DNA from: Lysinibacillus sp. 2017
GTDB taxonomy: Bacteria > Bacillota > Bacilli > Bacillales_A > Planococcaceae
DNA length: 64,000 bases
Assembly: GCF_003073375.1 (NCBI RefSeq)
Contig: NZ_CP029002.1
Span: forward strand, 1,102,001 to 1,166,000
Direction: 5' to 3'
Part shown: piece after piece, positions 11,650 to 20,893 of the stretch
How the letters are laid out: each line of letters starts with the position of its first letter
Numbering within the stretch: the first letter of the stretch is position 1
Position numbers and translations under genes: made by a program
The notes under the pieces: model-generated
The model's database searches: none
Told to the model about the DNA's origin: nothing
The model's input: the letters and a program-made list of their open reading frames with translations, nothing else

Positions 11650-11652
11650 CAT

Positions 11653-11745
11653 TTATAAGCCTAAATTTTTGGTAATGATATTTTTCATAAGTTCATTCGT
11701 ACCCGCATAAATCGAACCTACCGTAATTGAGGGAAGTATTATCGA
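11653..11745 (-). pseudogene. acyl-CoA dehydrogenase C-terminal remnant
   Basis: On the minus strand, just after the thiolase stop, a frame reads ...VGSIYAGTNELM then KNIITKNLGL and a stop at 11653-11655. This is the characteristic end of acyl-CoA dehydrogenases (GTxEIMKxII...LGL). The frame is closed by a stop after about 30 codons upstream and has no start, so only the tail of the gene survives. It implies that the operon once ended with an acyl-CoA dehydrogenase, which would supply the oxidation step of a beta-oxidation route. Confidence 0.75.
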
Positions 11746-11756
11746 TCAAAGGCAAC

Positions 11757-12953
11757 CTATAATTTTTCTACTATCATGGCTGTACCTACACCGCCACCAC
11801 CACTTAACGTAACGAGCCCAAATTTTCCATTTCGATGCTGTAGTTCGTCTAATAAGGAGCAAAGCATCATCGCACCAGTTGCACCTAATGCATGCCCAGT
11901 TGCTATAACGCCTCCATTGGGATTGAATTTATGATCATCCACATGCCAATCTTGCATCGCTTTGACTGCAGTTGCGGCATATGCTTCATAAAATTCTATG
12001 ACATCCATGTCTTCAATCGTTAAATTGCATTTTTTTAATAGCTTTTCCGCAGCAGCTTGCCCCCCAAGTAAAAGCATTGGATGCTCTGCAATTGATAATG
12101 TTCCAATAATTTTAGCGATGGGCTTTTGCTGCAGTGATTGCTGTGCAGATTCATTGCCAATAACGAGTAACGCTGCACCATCTGCTAGGCTAGGAGAGTT
12201 GCCAACATGATGGACATGCGGGAACTCCTTGCCCAAAGTAAATTCTTGTTGGATCGTAGCAAGCTGTTGTGCTGATAAAAAGGGTGCAAAGCTCGGCTCT
12301 AGTGACGTAAGTTTGTCTAGAGAAGCATCTTCACGTATGAGTTCATCATGTGAAAGAACGACTTTACCGTCTATGCGGATAGGAATCATAGAGCGATGAA
12401 AGCGATTTTCTGTCGTAGCTTTTGCAGCTCGTTGATGAGAACGTACAGAGTAGCTATCTAATTGTTGCCGCTCTAGCTTTGCTAAGTGTGCCATTAAATC
12501 AGCCGAGATACCCATGTGGATAAATTTCGTTTCTTCACTGACTTTTGGATTGGCAAACCAAGCACCTTCATCACTAAACATAGGCACTCGAGAAACCGAT
12601 TCAACACCGCCAGCAACGATAACATCATGATTTACACTATGCACTTTACTCGCAGCTATCGAAATGGCATCCAAGCCTGAAGTACAAAATCGCGTAATTG
12701 TCATCCCTGGCACCGAATAGGGGAGACCCGCATACGTAGCAGCTGTTTTTGCAATATTGGCGCCTTGATCTTTTAATTGGGTTACACAGCCTAAAATGAC
12801 GTCCTCAATAGCAGGAGTTAGGTGACTGTTTCGTTGTTGTAGTGCTGCAAATAATTGTTTGACCATTTCAACGGGTTCAACATCATGTAAGGAACCATTT
12901 TTTCTAGTGGAACCCCTTGGTGTACGTACGGCATCATAAATATATGCATCCAT
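11757..12953 (-). CDS. thiolase-family acyl-CoA acetyltransferase with altered active site
   Basis: 398-residue thiolase-fold protein, last intact gene of the sigma-54 operon. The acyl-accepting cysteine is present (C90 in TRFCTSGLDAI) and so is the oxyanion histidine (H354 in GHALGATG). Two usual residues differ: the second catalytic cysteine near the C-terminus is Ser384 (VTLSGGGGVG instead of TxCxGGG), and NEAFAA is YEAYAA. The order of motifs is closest to FadI/trifunctional-type thiolases (GLVT...GGxG). It probably performs or once performed thiolysis of a 3-oxoacyl-CoA; the loss of the second cysteine makes the exact chemistry uncertain. Confidence 0.85.
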   Translation of the reverse strand: MDAYIYDAVRTPRGSTRKNGSLHDVEPVEMVKQLFAALQQRNSHLTPAIEDVILGCVTQLKDQGANIAKTAATYAGLPYSVPGMTITRFCTSGLDAISIAASKVHSVNHDVIVAGGVESVSRVPMFSDEGAWFANPKVSEETKFIHMGISADLMAHLAKLERQQLDSYSVRSHQRAAKATTENRFHRSMIPIRIDGKVVLSHDELIREDASLDKLTSLEPSFAPFLSAQQLATIQQEFTLGKEFPHVHHVGNSPSLADGAALLVIGNESAQQSLQQKPIAKIIGTLSIAEHPMLLLGGQAAAEKLLKKCNLTIEDMDVIEFYEAYAATAVKAMQDWHVDDHKFNPNGGVIATGHALGATGAMMLCSLLDELQHRNGKFGLVTLSGGGGVGTAMIVEKL

Positions 12954-12967
12954 TCTGACACGCCTCC

Positions 12968-14662
12968 TTATACGCCGACTTGTTCATCATAAACTTGATC
13001 GATAAGAGCAGATTTGATGACTTTCCCAACGGCGTTACGAGGTAAAGTATCCACAATCATTAGTTTTTCAGGTAATTTGAAAGAGGCGATTTTTTTATCT
13101 GTTAATAATTTGATAACTTCCTCTAATGTAACCGTTTGACCTTCTGCCACAACAACACATGCACAGCTGATTTCACCATGTGCTTTATGAGGGTAGGGAA
13201 TAACGGCAACTTCTACAATGCTCGGATGTGTTTGAATAATTTCCTCTAGTTCTAATGGGGAAATTTTCATACCGGAACGCACGATAATATCTTTTAATCG
13301 CCCGACCACGCGATAATAGCGGGCTTCATCATTTTCTACGATGATTTCAAATAAATCACCGGTACTGAAATATCCGTCTACGTCAAATGCTTTTGCATTG
13401 ATTTCAGGTGCTTGCCAATAGCCAGAAAATACACCAGGACCTTTGATTTTTAGTTCTCCTGGATGATTTGGTTCAGTAATTTCTTCACCTGTATCGACAT
13501 CTACGAGCTTACTTATGACCATTTTTCCGACACGATTATGCCAAGATAACTCTTTTGGACCAAAGCGCGGTAAATAGATGGCACGAAGCCCCGCATCTGG
13601 CACATCTTCAGCATCACTTAAAAATGTTGCGCCTTCATTTGAACCGAAATAATTGATCAAATCAACTCCGTGAATCTCCTTCCATGAATGAATAAGCCAA
13701 GGTGTAATTGGGGCAGAACCTGTTCCAATTGCTCTTAGTGCATTAGTATCAATACTTGCTAATATTGCTTCATTTTTTATCATCATTGTTAATAATGATG
13801 GAGGGACTAAGGTATAGGTAATACGGTGTGTACCGATTTGTCCTAAAAAAGTAGGGAAATCAAATGGATGATGCAACACAAGTGTGCCACCACTTAATAT
13901 CCAAGGAACTAAGACTCCACCAATACCTGCCATATTAACAAGAGGGAATGTTAATAAAATTCGGTCTGCTGCAGTTAGCTTGGCAGCATCTACACTTGCG
14001 TAGGCACTTACAAACCATTCATTGTGACTTCTTGGAACACCTTTTGGCTTGCCTTCTGTCCCAGATGTCCAACAGATCGTAAAAATATCGTTAGCAGTGA
14101 CGTTAACTTCAGGTAATGGGTGCGCGGCTTGTGTTTCTAAATCAATATGAATACCACCGTCTAATTCACCATCGAATATGAAAACTGTTTTTAATGAAGG
14201 TACTTGCGGTTGTAACTGTGTATACATATTTGCGTATTGGCGCTCATTAATTTGCTGCATGGTAATGACGGCCTTTGCTTGTAGTGATTGTAATAGTTGT
14301 AAACATTCAAACTCTCGGAACTGCACTGGAAACGGGCTCGAAATCGCCCCAACTTTTAATACGGCAAAATAACTAATAACTAGTTCTACGATATTGGGAA
14401 GCTGGAGTGCTACAATATCGTCTTTACCAATGCCCTGCTCGTGCAATGCAGTTGCCACTTGATCAATTTTGTGTTGAAGTTCCTCATATGTCAGTGAATA
14501 AGATGGCGTGTTACAAAGAGAAGCTTTATTGGCAGGATCAATTAATGCTTCTTTGTTTGGTGATTGATTGACTAAAGCTTGTAAGTAATCTTGTGTTGTT
14601 TTTGTTCCCCACCAACCGTTATCTGTGTAAACATTGATATTTTCTTGTGTTGTCAAAATCAT
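12968..14662 (-). CDS. acyl-CoA synthetase (AMP-forming, ANL superfamily)
   Basis: 564-residue adenylate-forming ligase: acid + ATP + CoA to acyl-CoA. Seen: P-loop-like TSGTEGKPKGVPRSH, YFGSNEGATF (A5), YFSTGDLFEI (A7), GRLKDIIVRSGMKISP (A8 hinge), and the catalytic lysine of A10 in LPRNAVGKVIK. ATG 14662 is chosen because AAGGGAGAG lies just upstream; the longer frame to 14710 overlaps the previous gene. Spacing of 14 bases to the thiolase and 22 to the oxygenase suggests one transcript. The substrate cannot be read; aromatic or medium-chain acids are both possible. Confidence 0.9.
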   Translation of the reverse strand: MILTTQENINVYTDNGWWGTKTTQDYLQALVNQSPNKEALIDPANKASLCNTPSYSLTYEELQHKIDQVATALHEQGIGKDDIVALQLPNIVELVISYFAVLKVGAISSPFPVQFREFECLQLLQSLQAKAVITMQQINERQYANMYTQLQPQVPSLKTVFIFDGELDGGIHIDLETQAAHPLPEVNVTANDIFTICWTSGTEGKPKGVPRSHNEWFVSAYASVDAAKLTAADRILLTFPLVNMAGIGGVLVPWILSGGTLVLHHPFDFPTFLGQIGTHRITYTLVPPSLLTMMIKNEAILASIDTNALRAIGTGSAPITPWLIHSWKEIHGVDLINYFGSNEGATFLSDAEDVPDAGLRAIYLPRFGPKELSWHNRVGKMVISKLVDVDTGEEITEPNHPGELKIKGPGVFSGYWQAPEINAKAFDVDGYFSTGDLFEIIVENDEARYYRVVGRLKDIIVRSGMKISPLELEEIIQTHPSIVEVAVIPYPHKAHGEISCACVVVAEGQTVTLEEVIKLLTDKKIASFKLPEKLMIVDTLPRNAVGKVIKSALIDQVYDEQVGV

Positions 14663-14684
14663 AAAATCTCTCCCTTCATTTCTG

Positions 14685-16112
14685 TTATTCTGCGTATAAG
14701 CTTTCGCCATTCACCCATGTAGCATGGAATCCCATCGGAATACGCTGTGGAATTTCTAAACGTGCAATTGGTCCAAGGTCGAAGTTTTGGGCATCTAAAA
14801 TGATTAATTCAGATGTGTCGTGAATTTGATCATATACATAGGTGATTAAATAGCCATCATCCTCTGATGTTGCATTAGGTCTTGGGGAATAGGCGCCCTC
14901 TGTGCCGAAGCGTCCTGGACCGAATTCATAGCGAATCGATTTTCCTGTCCATGTGTCGTATTTAGCAACTCCATCAAATTCGAGTGTGCGCCCATTTGTA
15001 ATGCAAACATTGTAGGAATAACGTGATTTTATGCCTGTGTAATCTAAGTTGATGACAGGAAATTCTGTATTGGCATCACAAAGTTCATATTCTTTTACAG
15101 CGCCTGTTTTTAAATTGAAACGCCAGCAGTGAAGCTGTGCATCAAGACGTAAGAACGATAGCATGCGTTCAAGTGGACCATCCTCTTTTGATTGTGTTGG
15201 TTCAGGTTCTTTTACACGGCAGCAAACCATGACAATTTCATCTCCCTCCTCCCAAGCATTGACAACGTGGTATATATAACAAGGAGCTGCTTCGAACCAT
15301 TTAATTTCTTCAGCACTTCCGTAGCGCGGAATAATGCCAAAGCGGCTTGGTAGCTCCCGATAAAACCTTGATTTGTAATAGCCAAGCTTTGCGGCCTCTG
15401 GATCGTTAAACAATGGCAAATCCATTAAAATAGAATAATTTTTAGTAATTGCCATGTCATGAGGGAGTCGTGGACCAGGTAGCTCAATTGGCACACAATG
15501 TTTAAGTTGTCCATCTGCAGACGCGACTCCGTACATCATGTAAGGATACGTATTGCCGTAATCAAAAAATAAAAATTCACCTGTGTGTTCATCGACTTTT
15601 GAATGGGCTGAAACATTACATGTAAGTTGCCCACCAAAGTCCTCAATTCCTATTGTTTCAAGTGTTAATGCATCGACCTTATATGGTTGACCTGCTCGAT
15701 ACCAGAGACTTAATAAATTACCATTGTGGAAGACAACATCCGTATTAGATGAATTTTTTTCTTTTTCGAAAAACGGATTGTTTTTTGGATTTTCAAGTAG
15801 ACCCGTCCAAATTGCCCGTCCTTCGATTGCCTCGTGTTGAAATGCTTTCGTTTGAACATAGCGATTTCGGTAACTGACTTTACCATCATTAAAATAGACT
15901 CCGTGTAACATCCCATCTCCATCAAACCAATGATAACGACCATTCGGATTATGTTTTGGGTTTGGACCGTTTCGGATGTATGCACCATAAATATCATTTG
16001 GCACATGTCCTTCAATCACAGTTAATTGTTCGACAAATAATTCATCCTTCGCTGGGCCATATAAATTTTCCTCATAATAAGGATTATTAAATGCAGGTAA
16101 CTCACGAACCAT
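14685..16112 (-). CDS. carotenoid-cleavage-type oxygenase (RPE65/CCD superfamily)
   Basis: 475-residue seven-bladed-propeller Fe(II) oxygenase. All four expected iron-binding histidines are present: H170 (SAHSKVDEHTG), H218 (LPHDMAITKNY), H282 (YIYHVVNAWEEG) and H463 (MGFHATWV), with the RNGPNP and FDGDGMLHG landmarks near the N-terminus. The superfamily includes carotenoid and apocarotenoid dioxygenases, lignostilbene dioxygenase and isoeugenol monooxygenase; I cannot tell which from sequence alone. It cleaves a C=C bond to give two carbonyls. Rare in this part of the Bacillales chromosome and embedded in a sigma-54 operon with CoA-ligation and thiolysis genes, which suggests catabolism rather than pigment synthesis. 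Confidence 0.9.
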   Translation of the reverse strand: MVRELPAFNNPYYEENLYGPAKDELFVEQLTVIEGHVPNDIYGAYIRNGPNPKHNPNGRYHWFDGDGMLHGVYFNDGKVSYRNRYVQTKAFQHEAIEGRAIWTGLLENPKNNPFFEKEKNSSNTDVVFHNGNLLSLWYRAGQPYKVDALTLETIGIEDFGGQLTCNVSAHSKVDEHTGEFLFFDYGNTYPYMMYGVASADGQLKHCVPIELPGPRLPHDMAITKNYSILMDLPLFNDPEAAKLGYYKSRFYRELPSRFGIIPRYGSAEEIKWFEAAPCYIYHVVNAWEEGDEIVMVCCRVKEPEPTQSKEDGPLERMLSFLRLDAQLHCWRFNLKTGAVKEYELCDANTEFPVINLDYTGIKSRYSYNVCITNGRTLEFDGVAKYDTWTGKSIRYEFGPGRFGTEGAYSPRPNATSEDDGYLITYVYDQIHDTSELIILDAQNFDLGPIARLEIPQRIPMGFHATWVNGESLYAE

Positions 16113-16127
16113 TGAAACTCCTCCTTT

Positions 16128-17090
16128 TTATTTGACGGTTGAACTGCTTGAATTAAGTAACTTATTTTTAGCAGTGTCATATTCTTCTTTTAATTTTTCA
16201 ATAATGCTTGAGACAGGTTGAATATCGGATAATCGACCGACACCATGTCCCGCAGACCAAATATCCTTCCAAGCTTTTGAACCATCTAATGGCTGTTCAA
16301 AATTGATTTTATCTTTCTTTTTTAAATTTAGAGGATCATATCCTGCTTTCTCGATGCTTTGACGCAGCATATTCGCAGGAACTCCTGAAAATGAATCCGT
16401 TAAAATAATGTCTGCACTCGTAGCTTCGGTAAGCATTTCTTTGTAGGCAGTTGGTGCAAGACTTTCCTCTGCCAAAATGAATTTTGTCCCCATATAAGCA
16501 AAATCAACGCCTAATGCTTCACACGCTAAAATACTAGAACCCGTTGACATACCACCTGCTAAGCATAGAAAGCCATCCCAAAATGTTCGAACTTCCTCGA
16601 CAAAGGCAAAGCTATTTAACAAACCTGTATGCCCACCAGCTCCTGCACAGACGAGTACTAATCCATCTACGCCACTTGATGCAGCTTTTTTTGCATAATC
16701 AATTGAATTGACATCAGCGAATACGAGACCACCATAGCTATGCACCGCTTCAATGACTCTTGCAGGATTTCCAAGTGCGGTTACGACAATCGGTGGTTTA
16801 TACCGTTTTACAAGTTCTAGTTCCTGATCCATTCGTTCATAAGATCTATGGACGACAATATTGGCTGCCCAAATTGCGCTATTAGAATCTTGTGATAAGG
16901 AAGAAGTAATTTCCTCCAGCCAATTTTCCAATAATTCTATTGTTCTAGCATTTTGAAACGGAAAAGAACCTACAATTCCCTGTTTGCAGCAGTTAATAAC
17001 AAGTTGGGGCCCAGAAACTAAAAACATCGGTGCCGCAATAATGGGTAAAGTGAGCGATTTAGTTATTGTTGATGGTAATGGTCTTCTCAT
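16128..17090 (-). CDS. nitronate monooxygenase-family flavoprotein
   Basis: 320-residue FMN-dependent TIM barrel of the nitronate monooxygenase / FabK-like family. Seen: PIIAAPMFLVSGPQLV at the N-terminus, VVTALGNP, GLVLVCAGAGGHTG (phosphate-binding glycines) and AGGMSTGSSILACEALG with GTKF. ATG 17090 follows AAAGGAG; an in-frame GTG at 17108 lies upstream of that site and is rejected. First gene of the operon, directly downstream of the -24/-12 promoter. Members oxidise nitronates but many act as oxidoreductases on other substrates; the operon context argues for a role in the same carbon pathway. Confidence 0.85.
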   Translation of the reverse strand: MRRPLPSTITKSLTLPIIAAPMFLVSGPQLVINCCKQGIVGSFPFQNARTIELLENWLEEITSSLSQDSNSAIWAANIVVHRSYERMDQELELVKRYKPPIVVTALGNPARVIEAVHSYGGLVFADVNSIDYAKKAASSGVDGLVLVCAGAGGHTGLLNSFAFVEEVRTFWDGFLCLAGGMSTGSSILACEALGVDFAYMGTKFILAEESLAPTAYKEMLTEATSADIILTDSFSGVPANMLRQSIEKAGYDPLNLKKKDKINFEQPLDGSKAWKDIWSAGHGVGRLSDIQPVSSIIEKLKEEYDTAKNKLLNSSSSTVK

Positions 17091-17125
17091 TTTAAATTCT
17101 CCTTTCACTTCTTATAAATAGTCTC

Positions 17126-17141
17126 GCAAGAAGCGTGCCAA
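17126..17141 (-). promoter_or_regulatory. sigma-54 (-24/-12) promoter of the catabolic operon
   Basis: On the minus strand: TTGGCACG-CTTC-TTGC, a full match to TGGCACG-N4-TTGC with the invariant GG and GC at the correct spacing. Predicted start near 17115, 25 bases before the NMO start codon. The neighbouring gene encodes an enhancer-binding protein, which is what this promoter type requires. Confidence 0.9.
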
Positions 17142-17183
17142 CCTATGAAATATAGGAGTAAAAATCAAATAATAGGATAAATA

Positions 17184-17271
17184 AACATTGAATGTTATAA
17201 TTTTCTGAAAAAAGGAAACGTATATTAAATTAAAGTGATGAAAAAAAGAATCGGTGATGAAAATATTCATC
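17184..17271. promoter_or_regulatory. candidate enhancer-binding (UAS) sites
   Basis: Two inverted repeats lie between the divergent genes: AACATT-G-AATGTT (17184-17196) and GATGAA-N4-TTCATC (17256-17271). GTGATGAAAA is also repeated directly at 17235-17244 and 17255-17264, 20 bp apart (about two helical turns). They lie about 70-155 bp upstream of the -24/-12 promoter start, a normal range for sigma-54 activators. Inferred function. Confidence 0.4.
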
Positions 17272-17284
17272 AAGGAGGTTGACT

Positions 17285-18619
17285 ATGCTTAATGAACAAT
17301 TAGCGGCACGCTTTAGTTATGATGGTCTATGCGTTATAGATAAGGATGGAACGGGACTTTATATGAATAAAGCAGCAGCAACCATTTGTAACTATTCACT
17401 AGAAGAATTTGTTGGGCATAATATTAATCAAGCGTTGAAAAAGGGAGAAATTAGTGATTCAGTAGGTCTGTTAGTTGCTAAAAGAGGAAAAGTCATTACA
17501 CGTATTATTAATATTCGAGGCGTTGATGTGCTTGTAACAGGTACACCGATTTTTGATGATGAAGGAATACTATCAAAAATTATATTAAATGTACGTGATA
17601 TTTATGAATTAAATAACTTAAAGATGGATCAGCTTTTATCGATTGCTTTAAAAAATAGACAGAGTGTTCAAGATGAATTTCCGTCAGATTCCTTACCTGA
17701 TTTAGAAAATATAGTGGCAAAAAGTAAAGCATTTCGAAATGTTATTAAATTAATTCTTCGGATAACAAAGGTAGATTCTACGGTTTACTTGCGCGGGGAG
17801 TCAGGTGTAGGGAAGGAAGTTATTGTGAACTTACTCCATCAATATAGTCCGCGTGCCAATAACCCACTTATTAAAGTCAATTGTTCAGCAATTCCAGGAC
17901 CACTTTTAGAGGCGGAATTATTTGGCTATGAAAAAGGGGCTTTTACAGGTGCTGACCAACGCGGCAAGCCTGGGTTATTTGAGCAGGCAAATGGCGGCAC
18001 AATTTTGCTAGATGAAATAGGGGACATGCCCATTGATTTACAAGCAAAAATTTTACGAGTGCTTCAGGAACATGAAGTCATGCGAATTGGGGGACGTAAA
18101 ACAATCCCATTGAATATTCGAGTCGTTTCTGCGACTAATAAGGATTTGAATGAGCTTGTCAAAGAAGGGAAGTTTCGACTGGATTTGTATTACCGATTAA
18201 ACATTGTACCCATTGAGATTCCCCCGCTACGAGAGCGGAAAGAGGACATTGCGCCGCTTGCCTATTATTTTTTACAAAAAAAGAACAGTAAATATAAGAT
18301 GAATGTCAAATTTGCCCCGGGAATTATTCATTTGTTTTCAGATTACGATTGGCCAGGAAATGTTCGCGAAATGGAAAATATGATCGAACGATTAGTCGTT
18401 ATGTCAGAGGAAGATGAAATTTCATGGAGTGACTTACCTTTTATTCATCAGCGGCCAGATACGCTGTCACAAAAGCCGTTAAAGAATTTAATGCTTGAAA
18501 TAGAAAACAAAATAATCGTTGAAAAGCTTCAACAATATAGGACAACAAGAAAAGCCGCGAATGCTTTAGGGATTAGTCAGTCTACACTTGTTAAGAAATT
18601 ACAACGCTTTGAACAATAG
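17285..18619 (+). CDS. sigma-54-dependent transcriptional activator (PAS-AAA-Fis HTH)
   Basis: 444-residue enhancer-binding protein. N-terminal PAS sensor domain (about 5-110), then the AAA+ domain with Walker A GESGVGKE (171-178), the sigma-54-contacting GAFTGA loop (218-223), Walker B ILLDE (240-244) and arginine fingers in YYRLNIVPIEIPPLRERKED; a Fis-type helix-turn-helix ends the protein (TTRKAANALGISQSTLVKK). No receiver domain, so it senses a ligand or redox state directly rather than a kinase. ATG 17285 is 7 bases after AAGGAGG. It is divergent from the operon it presumably controls and upstream of the hydrolase and rpoN. Confidence 0.95.
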   Translation: MLNEQLAARFSYDGLCVIDKDGTGLYMNKAAATICNYSLEEFVGHNINQALKKGEISDSVGLLVAKRGKVITRIINIRGVDVLVTGTPIFDDEGILSKIILNVRDIYELNNLKMDQLLSIALKNRQSVQDEFPSDSLPDLENIVAKSKAFRNVIKLILRITKVDSTVYLRGESGVGKEVIVNLLHQYSPRANNPLIKVNCSAIPGPLLEAELFGYEKGAFTGADQRGKPGLFEQANGGTILLDEIGDMPIDLQAKILRVLQEHEVMRIGGRKTIPLNIRVVSATNKDLNELVKEGKFRLDLYYRLNIVPIEIPPLRERKEDIAPLAYYFLQKKNSKYKMNVKFAPGIIHLFSDYDWPGNVREMENMIERLVVMSEEDEISWSDLPFIHQRPDTLSQKPLKNLMLEIENKIIVEKLQQYRTTRKAANALGISQSTLVKKLQRFEQ

Positions 18620-18636
18620 TTGGCATCAAACTTGCT
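18620..18636 (+). promoter_or_regulatory. second sigma-54 promoter, before the hydrolase and rpoN
   Basis: TTGGCATC-AAAC-TTGCT begins at the base after the regulator stop codon. GG and GC have the right spacing; two mismatches to TGGCACG. Predicted start near 18646, just before the ribosome-binding site of the hydrolase. Confidence 0.75.
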
Positions 18637-18662
18637 AGCTATATTGCAAGGAGGGATGTCAA

Positions 18663-19571
18663 ATGAAAAGAGAAAGTGTGACATTCAACAGTGAAGGGAA
18701 ATTCTGTGCGGCTTGGCTCTATGTACCTGATAATTTAAATCAGCCAGCTCCAGCAATCGTCATGGCGCACGGGTTTAGTTTAGTTAAGGAAGCTTATTTA
18801 GATCGTTATGCGGACATGTTTTGTAAAAATGGGTTTGTTGTACTTGTGTTTGATTATCGGAATTTCGGTGAAAGTGAAAGCGATAAGCCCCAGCATTTAG
18901 AGCCATATGAGCAAATTAAAGATTATCGTAATGCCATCACTTGGGTCAGTGCATTACCTGAAGTGAATGCAGAGCAAATCGGAATTTGGGGTACTTCTTA
19001 TAGTGGTGGTCATGTACTACATATTGCTGCTGTAGATAAGCGAGTAAAAGCAGTAGTAGCTCAAGTGCCGACCATTAATGGACGAAAAGGTGCAGCGCGA
19101 AAAATGGGAACCGAACAACTAGCTAATTTTGTCCATCAATTAGAAAGTTATCGCGCGTCCCGATATTTTACAGGTGAACAGCAAATGATGCCTGTTGTTT
19201 CGCTAGATGAACCTTCTGCACAGCCACATCCGGATGCTTTTGAGTGGTTTATGAGGGCATCTAAGATAGCGCCCAATTGGAAAAATGAAATTACGTTTGA
19301 GTCGATGGAGCATTATTTAGAGTATAATCCTGCTAGCTTTGTCGAGTTTATCTCACCGACGCCCTTATTAATGATTGCTGCTATGGAGGACGGAATTACA
19401 CCACCGGATTTAATCATTGAAGCTTACGAAGACTGGGCAAACGAGCCGAAAAAATTATTGCAGCTACCAGGTGGACATTTTGATGTATATGACGGCTTTA
19501 CATTTGATCAGGCAAGTGAAGGAGCGCTGCAATGGTTTTTGCAACATTTAGTAGTGCATATTGCGAAATAG
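18663..19571 (+). CDS. alpha/beta hydrolase, dienelactone hydrolase/acetyl-esterase type
   Basis: 302-residue cytoplasmic alpha/beta hydrolase. HGFSLVKEAYLDRYA gives the oxyanion region, GTSYSGG the nucleophile elbow (Ser near 117), and an Asp in AAMEDGITPP and a His in LPGGHFDVY complete the triad. Similar proteins are annotated as alpha/beta fold hydrolases of the DLH/CocE-like group. Start ATG follows AAGGAGGG. Predicted to be under the sigma-54 promoter at 18620, hence a likely esterase or thioesterase of the same pathway; substrate unknown. Confidence 0.85.
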   Translation: MKRESVTFNSEGKFCAAWLYVPDNLNQPAPAIVMAHGFSLVKEAYLDRYADMFCKNGFVVLVFDYRNFGESESDKPQHLEPYEQIKDYRNAITWVSALPEVNAEQIGIWGTSYSGGHVLHIAAVDKRVKAVVAQVPTINGRKGAARKMGTEQLANFVHQLESYRASRYFTGEQQMMPVVSLDEPSAQPHPDAFEWFMRASKIAPNWKNEITFESMEHYLEYNPASFVEFISPTPLLMIAAMEDGITPPDLIIEAYEDWANEPKKLLQLPGGHFDVYDGFTFDQASEGALQWFLQHLVVHIAK

Positions 19572-19603
19572 CTTAAAAAACGAAAATGAAACGGGGGATG
19601 CTT

Positions 19604-20893
19604 ATGCAAATGGACATCCAAATTTCACCTCAAATAAAGCAAATCATGACAATGGATACGATCTTTCATTTAGAGATACTCCAATTAACAAATGACGAGT
19701 TGGCAACAATGATTGCCGACAAAGCGTTAGAAAACCCTTTATTGCTAGTAGAGGATCATTTTAATAGATTTTCAGTAGATTATTCCAATCTAAAAAGATA
19801 TGACAATCGAATTGAACCTTTCAAAGTAAAGCAAGAAAGCGTTGTAGAGTATTTATGGGAGTTAATGCCTTTACAAATCGAACTACCAAATATTCAAGAA
19901 CGAGTACTTCGTTTTTTAATGGAACATCTTGATGAACATTTATTTTTACAGGTGGAAATAAGTGAAGTATGTAAAAAATTTTCGATTTCCGAGGAAGAAA
20001 TAATAGAATGTATTGAATTGCTTCAAAGCTTTGGTCCGTTTGGTATTGCATCAAAAAATAGTAAACACTTTTTGGAATTGCAAGTGAATTTAGATGAACA
20101 GGCACCCCCGTTTGCCTTATTATTTATTCAACAAGAGTTAACGGCTATTGCAAATCTTCAAATGTCTTACCTTATGAAGAAATATAAAATGACCAAAAAA
20201 GAAGTATTAACAACGATTGCTTATATAAAGGGATTGCAGCCATTTCCAAAAATGCCAACATTAAATGAACCTTCTATGTTCATCATTCCGGATTTACAGA
20301 TTTCTTTGGTCGCAGGACAATGGATAATTGAAATAAACAACCAGCTGCTGCCTAAAGTATCAATAAATGAAGGTTATATTGCATTATTAAAAGAGGAATC
20401 TCTTATAAAAGATTATGTTGAACAACAGTTAAAGCAGGCACAGTTATTGGTAGATGGCATCGAAGAGCGAAAAAAGACAATTTATCGAATCATGAATTGG
20501 TTAATTCAAAAACAACGCTACTTTTTAGAAAAGGGTCAAAGTGGACTAATACCTCTACGATTAGCAGATGCAGCAAGGGAATTAAATTTACATGAATCAA
20601 CGATTAGTCGCGCCATACGTAATAAATATGTAAGAACGCCGTTTGGGATGCTTATGTTAAAAGAATTTTTCCCGAAAGGCATTACTTATACAGAAAATCC
20701 GAACTTGACGAGTGATAGGATAAAGCAACGTATACAACAGTTAATAGCAGGAGAGTGTTCATCAAAGCCGCTATCTGACCAACAACTTGTCGAATTTTTG
20801 AAAAAGGAGCAAATCCTAATTTCGAGGAGGACTGTTGCGAAATATCGCGAAAGCTTAACGATTCCAAATTCAACAAAAAGAGCATATGCATGA
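19604..20893 (+). CDS. rpoN: RNA polymerase sigma-54 factor (RpoN/SigL)
   Basis: 429-residue sigma-54. Region I (activator-interacting) is seen at the N-terminus (IFHLEILQLTNDELATMIADK, ALENPLL), the core-binding part in the middle, the DNA-binding helix-turn-helix (LHESTISRAIRNKYVRTPFG) and the RpoN box near the end, here SRRTVAKYRE rather than ARRTVAKYRE. Start at ATG 19604 (GGGGGA about 6 bases upstream); ATG 19586, 19598 and 19610 are in-frame alternatives. It lies 32 bases after the hydrolase, so it may be transcribed from a sigma-54 promoter and thus positively autoregulated. In B. subtilis sigL is located elsewhere. Confidence 0.95.
   Translation: MQMDIQISPQIKQIMTMDTIFHLEILQLTNDELATMIADKALENPLLLVEDHFNRFSVDYSNLKRYDNRIEPFKVKQESVVEYLWELMPLQIELPNIQERVLRFLMEHLDEHLFLQVEISEVCKKFSISEEEIIECIELLQSFGPFGIASKNSKHFLELQVNLDEQAPPFALLFIQQELTAIANLQMSYLMKKYKMTKKEVLTTIAYIKGLQPFPKMPTLNEPSMFIIPDLQISLVAGQWIIEINNQLLPKVSINEGYIALLKEESLIKDYVEQQLKQAQLLVDGIEERKKTIYRIMNWLIQKQRYFLEKGQSGLIPLRLADAARELNLHESTISRAIRNKYVRTPFGMLMLKEFFPKGITYTENPNLTSDRIKQRIQQLIAGECSSKPLSDQQLVEFLKKEQILISRRTVAKYRESLTIPNSTKRAYA

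Follow-up and report, generated by a model that had tools for sequence, protein, structure and literature searches.

Sigma-54 is usually described as serving many activators, so what does an rpoN gene serve when it lies within a single catabolic gene cluster? This question is raised by a 64-kb stretch of the genome of Lysinibacillus sp. 2017 (contig NZ_CP029002.1, positions 1,102,001 to 1,166,000; hereafter the window, whose internal coordinates are used throughout). The ORF list and family profile searches place seven intact open reading frames (ORFs) in two divergent groups between rpsU and nfeD, together with a dehydrogenase remnant. Leftward lie a nitronate monooxygenase (NMO)-family flavoprotein, a CCD-family oxygenase, an acyl-CoA ligase, a thiolase and an acyl-CoA dehydrogenase stub; rightward lie a PAS-AAA+-HTH activator, an alpha/beta hydrolase (abh) and rpoN. 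We consider it likely, from comparison of sequences, that this locus is a one-regulon sigma-54 system in which the PAS activator and two -24/-12 promoters control nmo-ccd-ligase-thiolase (operon 1) and abh-rpoN (operon 2). An earlier reading of the window from its letters alone (the original prediction) had described these gene families, their orientations, the remnant and the two promoter sites in the rpsU-nfeD interval; all were found there, and the cluster fills the interval.

One sigma-54 gene, one GAFTGA activator and two promoters

The rpoN ORF (19586..20893, + strand), which begins 14 bp past the hydrolase ORF, encodes a sigma-54 factor. It matches TIGR02395 with 333.5 bits (cut-off 277), scores over the cut-offs of PF00309, PF04963 and PF04552, and carries AID, CBD (core-binding) and DBD domains with the RpoN box RTVAKYR. 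It is the single PF04552 match in the 3.74-Mb one-contig genome. The activator (17279..18619, + strand, with its ATG start probably at 17285) contains a PAS domain (PAS_9), an AAA+ domain (PF00158, 223.8 bits) bearing the GAFTGA string, and a DNA-binding HTH (HTH_50, 43 bits), which identifies it as an enhancer-binding protein (EBP). While PF00158 has four matches in the genome, GAFTGA is present only in the cluster activator; the other three proteins are one degenerate PAS-AAA regulator without GAFTGA and two that were read from sequence as Clp ATPases. At G000:C1:3337183 (L003) lies a PAS-AAA-HTH regulator that resembles a sigma-54 activator without GAFTGA and is probably sigma-54-independent.

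Each operon is preceded by a -24/-12 (sigma-54) promoter. The operon-1 promoter (17125..17141, - strand; TTGGCACGCTTCTTGC(G), that is TTGGCACGCTTCTTGCG) begins 33 bp before the NMO ORF start, and the operon-2 promoter (18620..18636, + strand; TTGGCATCAAACTTGC(T), that is TTGGCATCAAACTTGCT) begins 43 bp before the hydrolase, directly at the activator stop codon. A genome-wide scan for exact matches to the strict pattern TTGGCAYN5TTGC returned 12 sites, six ending in A/T and six in G/C. Two are the cluster promoters, the only ones to fall in intergenic DNA ahead of a gene. Nine are within ORFs (five A/T-ending, four G/C-ending), four of them on the coding strand and one of these roughly 300 bp ahead of the next ORF. 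The twelfth was rejected as a promoter and read as a terminator, because it lies between convergent ORFs within an inverted repeat followed by T. On this evidence, the sigma-54 regulon of the organism would be this locus.

Within the window the strict form occurs at the two cluster promoters only. Allowing up to one mismatch gave 8 matches against 5.7 expected, which is not significant by count alone. Because the two sites are conserved in relatives, however, their dismissal as chance matches is untenable.

The cluster and its operon-1 promoter recur in related genomes

Conservation in relatives had been set beforehand as one of the tests on which the original prediction could fall, and on this one it stood. 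The combination of CCD, ligase, thiolase, hydrolase and activator genes was found in seven distinct genomes: that of the window, G144 (locus L093), G004 (L094), G134 (L092), Neobacillus niacini (L012), Sporosarcina aquimarina (L013) and G247 (L261). The sequence from G229 (L262) is identical to L013, and the two were counted once. The NMO gene is present in six of the seven clusters and was not found in the G144 stretch. A muconolactone-isomerase-like (MIase-like) gene and a 4HBT-type thioesterase gene occur in five, being absent from the window and from G144, while the G144 cluster additionally holds genes for an acyl-CoA dehydrogenase, a hydroxyacyl-CoA dehydrogenase and a second ligase. On a tree of 98 activators, six cluster activators group together as a single clade (support 100); this tree and the CCD alignment each cover six clusters and leave out L261.

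Upstream of operon 1, a strict site lies within 250 bp in all six clusters and also in the seventh (L261), which was fetched after the pattern had been fixed. The background is 162 strict sites in 5.33 Mb strand-bases, or about 0.0076 per 250-bp window, so that six of six by chance would have a probability of about 2e-13 if the loci were independent. For operon 2, a strict site was found in three of the six clusters examined (those of the window and L093, where the site is the same, and of L094, where it is comparable), with a loose one in L013.

Two classes of palindrome lie further upstream and are candidate activator sites, the choice of motif having been made post hoc; one activator-binding motif common to all clusters was not found. 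GATGAAN4TTCATC is present in the window, L093 and L012 at 82-114 bp upstream of the operon-1 -24 element (114 bp in the window and L093, 82 bp in L012). The window copy, GATGAAAATATTCATC (17256..17271), was likewise picked post hoc. The motif has 7 sites in 2.75 Mb of other loci and 3 places in the window's own genome. The second class, TTTGATTN8AATCRAA, occurs in L094, L092 and L013 (37-68 bp upstream of the operon-1 -24 element), and in L261.

rpoN genes of three lineages adjoin the cluster

In four of the seven genomes (window, G144, G004 and G134) rpoN adjoins the cluster, and the tree assigns these genes to three separate lineages. The window and G144 genes are sisters, the G004 gene groups with its own genus, and the G134 gene is placed with, and is 92% identical to, congeneric rpoN genes whose stretches contain no activator. 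A single clade for all four in-cluster rpoN genes was rejected (p=7e-57), as was a single clade for those of the window, L093 and L094 (p=8.6e-5), in trees with long branches and by a topology test that is model-dependent. Between the window (19586-20893) and L093 (12479-13771) rpoN is 62% identical, compared with 92% for the CCD and 86% for the activator, suggesting either that the sigma factor changed unusually fast or that it was replaced in situ. Each of the seven genomes with the cluster has rpoN somewhere, as expected because the cluster activator requires sigma-54. There is one rpoN and one activator in G144, two rpoN and four activators in G004, and one rpoN and five activators in G134.

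Apparent loss of sigma-54 together with the cluster

Among 16 genomes of the genus, nine have both rpoN (E<=1e-10) and an activator (E<=1e-35), and the other seven have neither; a single rpoN and a single activator are present in five of the nine, that of the window included. Two of the 16 congeners have an occupied rpsU-nfeD interval, which in the other 14 is a gap of 284-754 bp, with one ORF over 60 aa across the 11 gaps scanned. In two gaps the C-terminus of rpoN is kept (G048, E 1e-10; G013, E 6e-4), with none detected in reversed controls. At E<=0.001, G013 has no rpoN match genome-wide and G048 has only the stub in the gap. These tails seem to be scars of a joint loss of switch and cluster. 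In a tree of nfeD-region DNA the window branches outside both G144 and the scar pair, which argues that the cluster was probably ancestral in this part of the genus and was lost several times, the tree being that of a single locus and not of species. Other congeners have rpoN of other lineages beside other activators; the genes scanned next to them include those for an acyl-CoA dehydrogenase, an aminotransferase, an amino-acid permease, a glutamate-semialdehyde dehydrogenase and a carboxyltransferase.

Loss has also touched the window itself. The acyl-CoA dehydrogenase remnant (11652..11721, - strand) consists of C-terminal codons and a stop (frame ends IYAGTNELMKNIITKNLGL and ...VGSIYAGTNELMKNIITKNLGL, each then closed by the stop) and, over 70 bp, is 81% identical at the DNA level to the terminal part of the intact gene that follows rpsU at the corresponding position in L093. 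Since the stub matches the tail of that dehydrogenase, operon 1 of the window has lost genes, the acyl-CoA dehydrogenase among them. This raises the possibility that the cluster is in decay and has ceased to function as a pathway in this organism, a view with which the absence of the adjoining hydroxyacyl-CoA dehydrogenase and second ligase of G144, the absence of the MIase-like and thioesterase genes of the five other clusters, and the apparent loss of the cluster in sister lineages would agree. We nevertheless judge it unlikely, as the seven ORFs are intact, the activator has GAFTGA, the oxygenase keeps its four metal-binding histidines and the promoters are conserved.

rpoN and activator genes are often linked across the family

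The pairing of rpoN with an activator was followed in a sample of 200 genomes of the family, of which 109 have rpoN; 133 rpoN loci were examined (132 fetched, plus the window), with three short fragments left out. An activator lies in the same stretch as rpoN (at most 20 kb) in 93 of the 133 loci, and a GAFTGA-type activator in 89, in 60 of them within 5 kb. Within 10 kb of rpoN the corresponding counts are 91 and 87, the difference being stretches L102 and L108, which were set off-centre to take in an activator 11 kb away. Under a chance model made generous on purpose, with 16 activators in 2.4 Mb, about 20 linked loci would be expected; rpoN loci are related to one another, and a binomial value is therefore not a true probability. 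When linkage was traced on the rpoN tree, 16 changes between linked and unlinked were needed, 12 of them forced by starred branches. A strict -24/-12 site is present in 100 of the 132 fetched rpoN loci, with 167 matches at a spacing of 5 and 0-10 at each of 12 other spacings. This spacing control replaced a reversed-pattern control (0 matches), which was unfair because that pattern is CpG-rich. In a small comparison, 20 family loci fetched for other reasons held 0 strict sites in 0.18 Mb.

The idea that unlinked rpoN genes share one housekeeping position marked by glyceraldehyde-3-phosphate dehydrogenase (GAPDH) was discarded: the GAPDH motif test picked out only 5 rpoN loci, none of which has an activator in its stretch. 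Activator-like proteins (E<=1e-35) were recorded in 169 of the 200 genomes compared with rpoN in 109, and many genomes of group g8 have one activator and no listed rpoN; the surplus may consist of TyrR-like regulators or orphans. The three short C-terminal rpoN fragments, each from a different further genome (G086:C9:955320, G016:C40:10365 and G056:C22:44704), two of which share a contig with a full-length rpoN a few kb away, would represent duplication or decay of rpoN.

These data somewhat favour a model in which sigma-54 in this family is largely a plug-in and not a global factor. In such a model rpoN is gained, paired with an activator and an operon, and lost as a unit; the CCD cluster would have come to lie beside rpoN at least three times, deletion of a cluster can leave a species without sigma-54, and sister lineages would regain unrelated rpoN genes with other clusters.

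A dedicated or a global sigma-54

Several findings weigh against a sigma factor dedicated to one regulon. Three of the seven clusters have no rpoN in the fetched flanks, indicating that carrying it is not required. On gene counts, dedication appears clear for the window and G144 only; the G004 and G134 genes need not be dedicated, and the G134 cluster may simply have landed beside a resident rpoN. The faster divergence of rpoN than of its neighbours could reflect relaxed constraint. The strict site of operon 2 is limited to three of six clusters, no copy of GATGAAN4TTCATC was found near the operon-2 promoter, from which the operon-1 copy is separated by about 1.35 kb, and the four in-ORF sites on the coding strand could be internal promoters.

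In the alternative that these points invite, rpoN would encode an ordinary global sigma-54 for which the neighbouring operon happens to be just one target among several. It is common for sigma-54 to work with a number of activators, five being reported for B. subtilis (PMC3162934); 40 of the 133 family loci have no activator in the stretch, and the G134 and G004 genomes hold several. The chance of this being so in the window genome nevertheless seems slim, given its single GAFTGA activator, the lack of any other promoter-placed strict site, and the co-absence of rpoN and activator from seven of the 16 congeners, two of which retain rpoN remnants. The original claim of a self-contained sigma-54 regulon with its own rpoN is thus upheld by the sole rpoN, the sole GAFTGA activator, the conserved promoters and the placement of strict sites, and draws further support from the apparent loss of rpoN with the cluster in two congeners.

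A model for the switch

For the ligand, the activator-binding site, autoactivation, the substrate and the order of the enzymes, we infer the following scheme for a one-regulon system. A small molecule of the pathway is probably the signal to which the PAS-domain activator (17279-18619) responds; the activator would bind near 17256-17271 and remodel sigma-54 RNA polymerase at both promoters. The operon-1 promoter would drive nmo-ccd-acyl-CoA ligase-thiolase, while the operon-2 promoter at the activator stop codon would drive abh-rpoN, such that sigma-54 raises its own synthesis. The position of abh-rpoN behind its own -24/-12 site is what implies such autoactivation, and this layout is the same in G144 only. 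Basal sigma-54 may come from read-through of the activator gene, followed by self-amplification once the activator is on.

The oxygenase and its probable substrate class

The oxygenase (475 aa; 14685..16112, - strand) belongs to the RPE65/CCD superfamily: it matches PF03055 with 445.7 bits (cut-off 27 bits), and its four metal-binding histidines align with those of LsdA and of the solved structure 9luz. Its closest solved structures are named carotenoid 9,10-dioxygenase (best 321 bits, compared with 178 for LsdA), and identity over the aligned parts is 41.6% to 9luz and 29.9% to LsdA. We take these 9luz-type structures to be plant CCD1, the entry giving the enzyme name only. The segment HVVNAWEEG, described in the original prediction as shared with isoeugenol monooxygenase and lignostilbene dioxygenase, is in fact closer to HNANAWEEG of carotenoid 9,10-dioxygenase than to HVMNAFNDG of LsdA. 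The oxygenase scores below the cut-offs of the NCBIfam carotenoid and lignostilbene (LSD) models; with NF052295 (8'-apo-carotenoid 13,14-cleaving dioxygenase) it reaches 279.3 bits against a cut-off of 675, and is thus related to that equivalog but not a member of it.

The substrate-contacting residues point the same way. In LSD4, Tyr-101 and Lys-134 hydrogen-bond the 4-hydroxyl of the substrate (PMC8191317). The lignostilbene-type residues Phe-59, Tyr-101 and Lys-134 (LSD4 numbering) were mapped to the LsdA chain by an inferred offset of one. Phe-59 is kept in the window oxygenase, Tyr-101 is replaced by Leu, and Lys-134 aligns with Tyr (with Trp beside it); Tyr-101 and Lys-134 give way to the same Leu and Tyr in all six cluster CCDs aligned.

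The remaining enzymes resemble a CoA-dependent catabolic route. First in operon 1 is the NMO/FabK-type flavoprotein (16128..17108, - strand; PF03060, 92.7 bits), whose nearest solved structures are FabK-type reductases. Steroid catabolism employs a FabK-like flavoenzyme, IpdC, with acyl-CoA as its substrate (PMC5380842), an analogy that suggests an acyl-CoA redox role for the NMO protein. The acyl-CoA ligase (12968..14710, - strand; AMP-binding, 225.4 bits) has a relative in all seven clusters; 14710 is the first start of the ORF and the true start likely lies nearer 14664. The thiolase (acetyl-CoA C-acyltransferase; 11757..12953, - strand; Thiolase_N 158.6 bits, Thiolase_C 101.7 bits), last in operon 1, likewise recurs in all seven, as does the alpha/beta hydrolase of operon 2 (18663..19571, + strand; Peptidase_S15 and Abhydrolase matches). 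The best NCBIfam model for the hydrolase, UilS-type N-acyl-homoserine lactonase (NF047920), gave 177.9 bits, below its 400-bit cut-off. The gap noted in the original prediction is real, in that family profile search detects no aldehyde dehydrogenase among the seven genes.

Taken together, the enzymes most likely degrade an unsaturated isoprenoid-type compound. The CCD would cleave a C=C bond to carbonyl products, and the ligase would turn the resulting acid into a CoA ester. The FabK-like flavoprotein, joined in G144 by the acyl-CoA and hydroxyacyl-CoA dehydrogenases, may adjust the oxidation state; the thiolase would take off acetyl- or acyl-CoA, and the hydrolase could open a lactone, an ester or a C-C bond. 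For abscisic acid or any other named substrate, no described cluster of such make-up was found in the open-access literature, which was partly surveyed.

Recycling of the cell's own carotenoids in place of an external substrate also appears improbable: the genome does hold one gene of the squalene/phytoene-synthase family (86.8 bits), but the operon resembles CoA-dependent catabolism and the cluster type is rare (of 261 genomes in the order, 11 have a CCD at E<=1e-130, and in 6 of these it reaches >=62% identity). Improbable too is the phenylpropenoid half of the original substrate guess, in which the oxygenase is an isoeugenol monooxygenase or lignostilbene dioxygenase, since this assignment, despite the shared superfamily, the similar length and the conversion of isoeugenol to vanillin by L. 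fusiformis SW-B9, fails on the replaced Tyr-101/Lys-134 and on similarity, and no iem-like gene was found in SW-B9 by its authors (PMC4400434). The oxygenase may instead act on an apocarotenoid-like substrate, the other half of that guess.

Parts of this gene set recur beside CCD genes elsewhere. Of the best 80 CCD loci across genomes, 16 have an NMO relative close by (weak or partial in two cases), and related ligases and thiolases are frequent. In Chloroflexi, Actinobacteria, Proteobacteria and Bacteroidetes (loci L014-L091), genes for an acyl-CoA ligase and for thiolases, frequently including a second one of SCP type, repeatedly accompany CCD genes. Of these 78 loci, 14 also contain the NMO gene (a weak or partial match in two), and none of the 14 is titled actinobacterial. 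The occurrence of such relatives in several phyla indicates that the CCD module extends beyond this family. Within the family there is a second CCD type (L095, L096, L097, L098 and L099), about 41-45% identical to that of the window; at three of the five loci, a hydrolase with 42-44% identity to that of the window lies close by. A tblastn search of the L095-L099 stretches with the window activator gave nothing above 80 bits.

Discussion

To our knowledge, the mannose phosphotransferase system (PTS) is the only target of the Lactobacillus plantarum sigma-54 system. Single-activator sigma-54 systems are described for L. plantarum and Chlamydia trachomatis, that of L. plantarum being linked to the mannose PTS (PMC3162934). 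The window resembles both in having one sigma-54 with one activator. It differs in its CCD/acyl-CoA target, its PAS-type activator and an rpoN downstream of a -24/-12 site in its own locus, and in that relatives of the cluster have neighbouring rpoN genes from other lineages. In Mesorhizobium loti, rpoN2/nifA2 on ICEMlSym is a case of a sigma-54 gene that likewise shares one genetic unit with its activator and regulon and is needed for it; M. loti, however, has a second, chromosomal rpoN1 (PMC3538637), whereas here the cluster copy is the only one.

The enzymes have partial counterparts. While the carotenoid 9,10-dioxygenase of 9luz is the closest solved relative, the bacterial oxygenase belongs instead to an operon for CoA-dependent catabolism. 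Steroid ring C/D catabolism (fadD3, ipdC, fadA6) likewise applies a CoA ligase, the FabK-like flavoenzyme IpdC and a thiolase to an isoprenoid-derived acid, but without a CCD (PMC5380842); the likeness of the NMO protein to IpdC is one of enzyme type.

Single-activator sigma-54 systems and a mobile rpoN with its activator are thus known already. What looks new is the combination of a cluster-borne rpoN as sole sigma-54, three rpoN lineages beside the same regulon, and remnants suggestive of joint loss. We found no paper in the open-access literature combining sigma-54, rpoN and Lysinibacillus, and none on this cluster or on a cluster-borne rpoN in this family in the part of that literature surveyed.

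In this organism sigma-54 would behave as part of the regulator of one operon, with one sigma-54, one competent-looking activator and two promoters, and the question of why genomes keep or lose sigma-54 becomes testable inside one genus. The locus may serve as a compact natural circuit, comprising a sensor-activator, a self-driven sigma factor and two outputs. It also offers an entry to an uncharacterised CCD pathway, components of which turn up next to CCD genes in several phyla.

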